NCBI GenBank assembly: GCA_031290985.1
Contig: JARLJW010000098.1
Coordinates: 1-64,000 of the forward strand
DNA: 64,000 nucleotides
Reading direction: 5' to 3'
Origin: Verrucomicrobiia bacterium
GTDB taxonomy: Bacteria; Verrucomicrobiota; Verrucomicrobiia; Limisphaerales; UBA11358
Part shown: one piece after another, positions 22,016-25,002 of the stretch
Numbering within the stretch: position 1 is the first letter of the stretch
Layout of the letters: each line of letters starts with the position of its first letter
Program-made: the position numbers and the translations under genes
Notes under the pieces: model-generated
Database searches by the model: none
Told to the model about the DNA's origin: nothing
Seen by the model: only the letters and a program-made list of their open reading frames with translations

Positions 22016-22444
22016 ATGAACCCACGCCCGCCCTTGCCGCCGTTCACCGAGGAATCCGCCCGCCAGAAAGTTCAGGCCGCCGAAGATGCCTGGAATTCCC
22101 GCGATCCCGAACGCGTCGCGCTCGCCTACACCGAGGACACCGAATGGCGCAACCGCGCCGAGTTCATCCGCGGCCGCGCACAGGTCGTCGAATTTCTCCG
22201 CCGCAAATGGAACCGTGAACTCGACTACCGCCTGAAAAAGGAACTCTGGGCCTTCACCGGCAACCGCATTGCCGTGCGCTTCGAATATGAATGGCACGAT
22301 GACTCCGGCCACTGGTATCGCTCCTATGGCAACGAGAACTGGGAGTTTGATGAACTCGGCTACATGCAACGCCGCTTCGCCTGCATCAACGACCTGCCGA
22401 TAAAGGAAACCGACCGTAAATTCCGCTGGGAGCGGAAGGTCTGA
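22016..22444 (+). CDS. DUF1348 / NTF2-like protein
   Basis: 142 residues: [20 protein letters not shown] then [60 protein letters not shown] and a final [16 protein letters not shown]. This is the DUF1348 branch of the SnoaL/NTF2-like cone fold, usually ~140-160 residues. Small-molecule binding or isomerase activity is possible but unproved. It starts 3 bases after the flavoprotein gene. The DNA for its last 12 residues and stop is duplicated 225 bases downstream together with a REP pair. Confidence 0.88.
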
Positions 22445-22452
22445 ATTTCAAC

Positions 22453-22573
22453 GGACGGCGGCTGTGGCGGAGCCCAGCCGCAGCGCCTGGCAATGCCGAT
22501 CGCATTCGAGAAATCTTACGCGTTCCAACGTTCGTACGCGCTGCGGCTGGTCTTTCAGACACAGCCGCCGTCC
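22453..22573. repeat. REP/BIME-like palindrome pair, copy 1
   Basis: 121 bp bounded by GGACGGCGGCTGTG and its inverse CACAGCCGCCGTCC. Each end also folds alone: GCGGCTG...CAGCCGC around GGC-GGA-GCC on the left, and GCGGCTG-GTCT-TTC-AGAC-A-CAGCCGC on the right. Two different hairpins in inverted orientation form a BIME-like unit. Confidence 0.8.
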
Positions 22574-22677
22574 ATTGGCAGCGCCGGCACGCGCCATTTT
22601 GCTCGGCTGGTGTTGGCAATATATTTCCAACAAACCGACCGTAAATTCCGCTGGGAGCGGAAGGTCTGAATTTCAAC

Positions 22678-22798
22678 GGACGGCGGCTGTGGCGGAGCCC
22701 AGCCGCAGCGCCCGGCAATGCTGAAAACATTCGAGAAAACTGACGCGTCCCAACGTTCGTACGCGCTGCGGCTGGTCTTCCAGACACAGCCGCCGTCC
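22678..22798. repeat. REP/BIME-like palindrome pair, copy 2
   Basis: Near-identical to copy 1, 225 bp further on, with the same two hairpin types. It ends 2 bases from the stop of the RAYT gene. The 46 bases before it copy the end of the DUF1348 gene and its flank. Confidence 0.8.
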
Positions 22799-22799
22799 A

Positions 22800-23495
22800 T
22801 TAAAGGCACAACCGCCCATACTTGTCCCGAAACCTGGCACTGCTCCACGCCCAATCTTTCGGGTTAGTCACGAGCCTGGCCTTCACCGGGTTATTTTCGA
22901 TGTAGCGCACGATTGTCTGTTCATGTTTGAGGTTGCGCGCGTAAGTGTCGAAATAGCCGGCGGCCCAAAATGCACCTTGTCGTTTCAATGTACGATTCGC
23001 CTTGTTGGCGGTGTGCTTTTTCCACGACTCAATGATTTCCGCCATCGGCACCAGGTCCACTTTGAAAAGAACATGGACATGGTTGGACATGATGGCCCAC
23101 GCGCGGAGATCATAACGTGCGCCATGAAATATTCTTAAGGCAGCCTCAACGATGTTGGCGATTTCAGGTGCGCGCAAATGACGTTCTCCATGTCCCTTAT
23201 CGAGGTAATTTTCCAGTTTCATCCGCCGGTCCAGAACATCTTCGATATTCCAAAGATGCGCCCATTCAGAGCGAAGCGATTCAGGAAAACTATCTATCAG
23301 GCGAAAAGTGACGAATTGAACAAGTCCGGGTTCATCGCGGTGAGGCAGGTAGCCTGACTCATTCCAACCGTTGAAGCCCAGCTTGGCGTCTGCCTGTGTT
23401 GGCGGTGAAGAATACCGGCGCTTGTTCGCGATCAATTCACGCACACCGGGGTTGTGTGGCAAGCCGGTTCGTCGTGGTCTGGCGGGCTCATTCAC
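22800..23495 (-). CDS. REP-associated tyrosine transposase (RAYT)
   Basis: 231 residues of the Y1/HUH transposase type: an early QFVTFRLIDSFPESLRSEW, then DLRAWAIMSNHVHVLFKV with the HUH (HVH) metal-binding pair, and the C-terminal RYIENNPVKARLVTNPKDWA that carries a conserved helix before the WSSAR end. Family length is usually ~150-250. It handles single-stranded REP DNA with a tyrosine nucleophile. It lies between BIME copies 2 (immediately downstream) and 3 (73 bases upstream), the expected RAYT/REP arrangement. It looks intact. Confidence 0.9.
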   Translation of the reverse strand: MNEPARPRRTGLPHNPGVRELIANKRRYSSPPTQADAKLGFNGWNESGYLPHRDEPGLVQFVTFRLIDSFPESLRSEWAHLWNIEDVLDRRMKLENYLDKGHGERHLRAPEIANIVEAALRIFHGARYDLRAWAIMSNHVHVLFKVDLVPMAEIIESWKKHTANKANRTLKRQGAFWAAGYFDTYARNLKHEQTIVRYIENNPVKARLVTNPKDWAWSSARFRDKYGRLCL

Positions 23496-23568
23496 GCCGC
23501 CATTGAATCAAGTTATAAAATCGTCACAAGCTGTTATTTAAATGCCTGCGAAAGCCAGGAATTCCAAC

Positions 23569-23687
23569 GGACGGCGGCTGTGTCTGAAAGACCAGCCGCA
23601 GCGCGTGTATTTGCTGCAATGGTTCGGGTTTTCTAAAGTCACGGGCGGGCCAGGCGCTGCGGCTGGGCTCCGCCACAGCCGCCGTCC
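23569..23687. repeat. REP/BIME-like palindrome pair, copy 3
   Basis: 119 bp with the same ends, but hairpin types swapped: the TCTGAAAGA-type hairpin is on the left and the GGCTCCGCC-type on the right. The unit is therefore inverted relative to copies 1 and 2. The inner spacer differs. Confidence 0.78.
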
Positions 23688-23732: not shown

Positions 23733-24776
<1,044 letters not shown>

Positions 24777-25002
24777 AAGGTGTGAAATTTTGTGAAGCGA
24801 TTCTGCCAGAGCCGCGCGCGAGGTCAACCCCGCCATGGCCGGGTTTTTACCGCGGGCTGAACCCGGAAAAAAACCGCAGCGCGCCGGGAATCCCAGACGG
24901 ATTATTTCGACACAACAAATTTTGCGGTGACAAAGGCAAATTACGTTCACGGTGTTTGCTTTTCATCCGGCCCAATTCGTGGGAACCTGTGGCCAGAAAT
25001 TT

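Follow-up and report, generated by a model that had tools for sequence, protein, structure and literature searches.

The DNA analysed here (the window) is a 64,000-nt stretch of a genome of about 6 Mb from a Verrucomicrobiia bacterium. Between positions 22449 and 23691 it encodes a 231-aa Y1/HUH tyrosine transposase (RAYT) amid REP doublets of 121, 121, and 119 nt. RAYTs, REPINs, and BIMEs are well-known element classes. The six REPs of this locus are the only ones found in the 64-kb window. The features, with their strands, are as follows.

22016..22444 (+), DUF1348 gene, adjoining unit 1 (Pfam)
22407..22801 (+), tandem duplication, 170-nt copies 22407-22576 and 22632-22801, period 225, 95% identical
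22453..22573 (+), REPIN/BIME unit 1, 121 nt, 53-nt linker, DNA fold z -6.8
22453..22485 (+), REP a of unit 1, GGAC foot, inner stem GGC/GCC
22539..22573 (-), REP b of unit 1, GGAC foot, inner stem GTCT/AGAC
22678..22798 (+), REPIN/BIME unit 2, 121 nt, tandem copy of unit 1, fold z -6.7
22678..22710 (+), REP a of unit 2 (covariance model)
22764..22798 (-), REP b of unit 2 (covariance model)
22800..23495 (-), RAYT (TnpA-REP-like HUH/Y1 transposase), ORF of 231 aa with GTG start (Pfam Y1_Tnp, NCBIfam, fold)
22902..22904 (-), predicted catalytic tyrosine codon Y198 (YIENNP), invariant, matches YIYINP of 4ER8
23073..23081 (-), HUH motif codons (H139-V-H141), invariant in relatives, aligned with 4ER8
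23569..23687 (-), REPIN/BIME unit 3, 119 nt, 51-nt linker, inverted with respect to units 1 and 2, fold z -5.7
23569..23603 (+), REP b of unit 3 (covariance model)
23655..23687 (-), REP a of unit 3 (covariance model)
23733..24950 (-), xylose-isomerase-like TIM barrel gene on the opposite side of the locus (Pfam AP_endonuc_2)

The RAYT gene and its REP units

A first-pass annotation, made from the sequence alone, had described three units of about 120 bp with two distinct REP hairpins each and the RAYT gene between units 2 and 3; the layout above agrees with it, and all six REPs were recovered by the covariance model. The annotation put the end of the gene two bases from unit 2, which is right within one base: the stop codon occupies 22800-22802 and the unit ends 1 nt away, at 22798. 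The swapped hairpin order that it saw in unit 3 is an inversion of the whole unit, with arms (22449-22491/23649-23691 and 22536-22578/23564-23606) that are 98% complementary. It missed that units 1 and 2 form a tandem duplication that includes the final codons of DUF1348, and that the 5′ tag is other than GT[AG]G.

Every unit consists of two REPs in opposite orientation. The first type reads GGAC-G-GCGGCTG-T-GGCGGAGCC-CAGCCGC-AGCG and the second GGAC-G-GCGGCTG-T-GTCTGAAAGAC-CAGCCGC-AGCG, so that foot, outer stem (GCGGCTG/CAGCCGC), and one bulged T are alike and the inner stems distinct. The foot is GGAC in all six window REPs and not the canonical GT[AG]G. The folding z values listed are for single strands compared with shuffled sequence, and the unit itself contains no T-run.

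The tandem duplication begins within the DUF1348 gene, and each copy contains the 3′ end of that gene and one REPIN; units 1 and 2 are therefore not independent insertions. The native 3′ end of DUF1348 (DRKFRWERK) is intact and orthologues end in the same way. The foot of unit 1 begins 8 nt past its stop codon, and the REP motif was absent from the compared flank of 11 of 11 DUF1348 orthologues.

The identification of the gene at 22800-23495 as a RAYT, already made in the first-pass annotation, is supported by its sequence and its predicted fold. A Pfam search gave Y1_Tnp (1.1e-10), and the best NCBIfam match was REP_Tyr_transpos (NF047646; 4.4e-20). This is a naming model and not a definition of the RAYT class, and because its score of 72.1 bits lies below the cut-off of 80 we withheld the name as an equivalog and kept the broader class. 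A profile built from six relatives had 4ER8 (E. coli TnpA-REP with a REP hairpin) as its sole PDB match. The same structure was the top match of the AF2 model (pLDDT 88.7), with Z 16.2 and rmsd 2.4 over 141 residues, far above unrelated rows, which points to the Y1 HUH fold of the RAYT/TnpA-REP class. NHVH lies at residues 138-141 and YIENNP at 198-203; H139, H141, Y198, N202, and P203 were invariant across 24 relatives. The protein thus combines HUH with the Y---NP motif of class 2 TnpA-Y1 enzymes, and its gene is low-copy, with REPs on both flanks whose copies are scattered over the genome.

REP copies in the genome and its relatives

The REP counts rest on a search of the genome's contigs and retrieved stretches. 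The exact pattern matched 40 times genome-wide, against 0 for a reversed-pattern control, and a covariance model made from 36 distinct REPs matched 103 times at E ≤ 0.01. Paired cells made up 99.2% of the 36 aligned REPs, and the inner stem had 17 double-change (compensatory) cells, a number that 0 of 500 shuffles reached. Seventy REPs form 35 inverted doublets, all foot-outward, with spacers of exactly 35 nt (n = 17), 51-55 nt (n = 17), or 9 nt (n = 1); two inverted REPs at a defined spacer thus recur, as in REPINs and BIMEs. Genes were predicted around 84 REPs, in retrieved sequence only, by a codon model trained on the genome itself: 79 REPs lay outside predicted genes in stretches that are 63% predicted coding, doublet partners not being independent. 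The intergenic setting was tandem in 21 cases, convergent in 15, and divergent in 15. The first-pass annotation had proposed this count and mapping as a check, and had named two outcomes that would speak against it: no other genomic copies, or repeats tied to a different transposase. Neither was found, given the 103 REPs here and the related hairpins that flank related RAYTs in other genomes.

Three subfamilies have a common stem. The window type has a linker of 53 nt and a GGAC foot, a second type has a linker of 35 nt, and a third combines a 54-nt linker with a GGAG foot. The window type is low-copy. Besides its three units in the window it occurs at C72:21886-22006 and C88:35723-35843, which we counted once because they are segmental duplicates, and in part at C90:110737-110769 and C87:146-178. 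On the left flank of these four copies about 36 nt resemble the DUF1348 3′ end (KFRWERKV-stop), and the copies have more upstream sequence in common that is absent from the window. It is possible that the repeat captured host DNA there. Repeats of like geometry at unrelated intergenic sites, together with the DUF1348-like flank of the four copies, suggest that REP units have moved. Doublets of the GGAG type were also seen within predicted genes whose frames are still open (C29:22063-22190 and C73:32642-32769). Rfam held no family for the repeat; tRNAs alone reached the gathering score.

The genome has other RAYTs. A paralogue (C91:31427-32140; L067:2859-3653) has GGAGC-footed REPs with a different stem, and an inserted REP doublet separates its HUH and Tyr motifs without breaking the frame. 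A third RAYT (C60:1920-2540; L068) has GTAG-type hairpins (GTAGGGCAGGC...GCCTGCC) in an array of their own; GTAG- and GGAS-type systems therefore occur together in one genome.

Among 59 related genomes, 28 had a RAYT relative (E ≤ 1e-20) and 31 had the window REP. At least 10 REPs were present in 8 of the 15 genomes with a close RAYT versus 6 of the 43 without one (Fisher p 0.004, relatedness ignored). Same-stem REPs adjoin the nearest RAYT relative (G029, 67%), and a genome of a different family (G045, 61%) has GGACCGCGACTG...CAGTCGC, a compensatory stem variant. RAYT and REP travel together, since related GGAS-footed hairpins are found at related RAYT loci of other Verrucomicrobiota. One genome (G012) has two close RAYTs and 0 window REPs, with diverged hairpins instead. 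Conversely, the six REP-rich genomes that lack a close RAYT include G038 and G039, with at least about 110 REPs each; these are possibly orphan populations, or may depend on a more distant transposase. The compared relatives, which are too distant for this, showed no transposition event, no target duplication, and no strict pair of empty and filled sites.

A pair of RAYT and REP outside the gammaproteobacteria, as the first-pass annotation put it, is thus borne out at this locus, although as a class such pairs, Verrucomicrobia included, were described in 2013 (PMC3733652).

We consider it very probable that the locus is a REPtron, a RAYT gene with inverted REPIN units on either side whose REP is dispersed about 100 times, working in trans by a single-strand mechanism. 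Wherever single-stranded DNA is exposed, such as on the template of the lagging strand, the REP would fold into a hairpin and leave the GGAS foot unpaired. The HUH/Tyr transposase, expressed from its low-copy gene and acting in trans, would recognize the foot and the bulged hairpin, cleave nearby through Y198, and rejoin the strands, and now and then a paired unit would spread or rearrange into intergenic DNA. Cleavage and rejoining near REPs, and use of the foot as the tag that is recognized, are presumed by comparison with the E. coli enzyme. TnpA-REP binds single-stranded REP, cleaves it, and requires the GTAG foot, with no substitution tolerated (PMC8266576). Movement of the units would follow the same scheme, and the window RAYT may serve all REPs of its genome with the GCGGCTG stem.

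Other readings of the locus have to be set against the REPtron. The hairpins might be ordinary intergenic structures under host selection (terminators, mRNA-stabilizing or protein-binding sites) beside which a RAYT landed by chance. They are intergenic and fold strongly, and REPs are known to gain such host roles (PMC3733652), but this reading is quite improbable: the gene contexts given above have no terminator-like convergent or downstream bias, and related hairpins stand beside RAYTs elsewhere, where the GGAG foot is concentrated near the gene (see below). With unbiased context and a unit without a T-run, the terminator reading was rejected. A further candidate is a classical IS200/IS605 insertion sequence with subterminal hairpins, which would have the Y1 fold and flanking hairpins in common with the locus. 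We find it barely credible, since YIENNP is of the class 2 signature Y---NP and not the Y---Q of IS200 (PMC6006769), the IS200 model scored 30.4 bits on the RAYT against an NCBIfam cut-off of 55, and the hairpins are dispersed without the gene, of which the genome has no near-identical copy, the next being 64% identical. Neither the Y---Q motif nor near-identical copies of a whole element, as expected for IS200/IS605 membership, were found.

An inert relic, with RAYT and REPs formerly active, the copies fixed and the gene decaying, is a minor possibility. The window RAYT is the sole intact one of its subclade, a sister copy (C72:175982-176697) being broken across frames; the codon model trained on its own genome fails to recognize it; and the window-type units are few. 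Set against this, its frame is intact with all invariant residues present, units 1 and 2 have kept their 95% identity, and sister RAYTs are under purifying selection (dN/dS 0.06-0.19), so that such proteins do something useful or self-serving.

A GGAG/GGAC foot and the proposed reading of the guide

We scanned all 256 tetramers as hairpin feet at 80 RAYT loci from named genomes, mostly Verrucomicrobiota. The top tetramers were GGAG and the overlapping GAGC, with GGAG at 42 of 80 loci near the RAYT versus 10 of 80 far from it; the GTAG foot was found at 4 loci near and at 1 far. A strict foot scan that required perfect stems gave no information, as the REPs bear a bulge. A tree of 113 RAYTs placed the window protein within a 74-row clade (support 100/98). 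Feet were labelled automatically, and some loci were missed or mislabelled; 51 rows of this clade were labelled GGAS and 2 GTRG, the latter being mislabelled copies of one locus (L127/G_L089) that has a GGAGCGCGGGTC...GACCCGCAGCA hairpin. A distinct 12-row clade had 8 GTRG and 0 GGAS labels. The 5′ tag is thus GGAG/GGAC, not GT[AG]G, across the supported 74-row clade. No GGAG- or GGAC-footed REP family was found in the main texts of open-access papers.

Residues of the window protein that align with the guide contacts of 4ER8 differ from them (Q95 to A178 and H101 to T184). GGAS-labelled loci have T, R, I, C, or N at the place of E. coli H101, with H in 0 of the 55 that are readable, whereas 7 of the 14 readable GTRG-labelled loci have H; as this contrast tracks phylogeny, it is a hint only. 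We give even chances to a guide switch in a Verrucomicrobiota-wide RAYT clade, in which the GGAG/GGAC foot replaced GT[AG]G and the guide-reading residues changed to match. If true, it would offer a natural series for the evolution of guide specificity in a single-strand transposase. To our knowledge, RAYT biochemistry has dealt with GTAG-footed REPs throughout. A large clade without GTAG provides matched protein/DNA pairs for testing co-evolution of guide reading, in a phylum whose REPs have had little study.

Among the known systems, the nearest by HuH/Y motifs is subclass 2.4 (Bertels group 4; PMC6006769), with NH[IFV]H, YIxNNP, and flanking hairpins. It differs in its GT[AG]G foot (GGAC/GGAG here), in WQ instead of WA, and in a shorter N-terminal part (median 194 aa versus 231), and because of WA and the GGAC foot we did not place the window RAYT in it. 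E. coli TnpA-REP (4ER8, subclass 2.2; y/z BIMEs) is alike in fold and HUH/Tyr core, in having REPs of two subtypes that form inverted pairs on either side of the gene, and in a stem irregularity (one bulged T here), whereas identity is 19%, its foot is GTAG, and the guide contacts differ. The REPs of Opitutus terrae come from the same phylum and include dimers and intragenic examples, but their tag is GTAG or GTGG, and GGAG is absent from the text of that paper (PMC3733652). Pseudomonas/Xanthomonas REPs (GTAGGAGCG...; PMC2817692, Table 1) likewise have GGAGCG directly 5′ of the stem, whereas GTA is unconserved upstream of GGAG/GGAC in the window clade. Going by the sequences, the GGAGCG found here may derive from a string of that type by loss of GTA.

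RAYTs in frame inside housekeeping genes

In many genomes of the order Limisphaerales, RAYTs of the GTRG-footed clade are frequently enclosed in long open frames of host genes. One such RAYT was searched against 293 genomes of the order, and of its 46 best matches 38 were in frames of at least 550 aa. In PriA, DnaE, ClpB, and a DinG/XPD-like helicase, Y1_Tnp has host Pfam domains before and after it within a single unbroken frame. Further host genes encode a SNF2 helicase, UDPGP, and an N6 methyltransferase; some host names come from motifs read by eye, without Pfam. The insertion site is constant within each host gene. Chimeric RAYT-host proteins are predicted from these open frames. No report of a RAYT inside housekeeping genes was found in the main texts of open-access papers. 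We rate this side finding as stronger than the RAYT/REP finding itself, and it raises the question of how a transposase is tolerated within essential genes such as PriA, DnaE, and ClpB.

PriA-RAYT frames were found at L107:1-2922(-), L206:2246-5368(-), L207:3118-6435(+), and L208:3189-6368(+) (genomes G018, G031, G085, and G113). The RAYT enters PriA in frame just ahead of the Walker A motif and has PriA domains before and after it in one open frame. It is complete, with HUH and YIxxNP intact and REP-coded peptides at the borders. In each of the four genomes the chimera is the sole PriA found, and its helicase motifs are kept. An AF2 model of the chimera, run with four sequences, had a pLDDT of 39.8, too low for use.

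The remaining hosts were DnaE (L109, L221), ClpB (L112, L211, L217), DinG/XPD-like helicases (L210, L212, L213, L214, L218), SNF2 helicases (L220, L222), UDPGP-like (L223-L225), methyltransferase-like (L209, L216), and HsdR-like proteins (L215, L219). The genome of the window has an example of its own on contig C44 (L069:702-3578(-)), where a RAYT lies in frame near the end of a 959-aa HsdR-like frame. Two distant records, L192:1568-2890(+) from Methylococcaceae and L162 from 1895(+), have a RAYT in frame at the corresponding site of a DUF1156-type methyltransferase.
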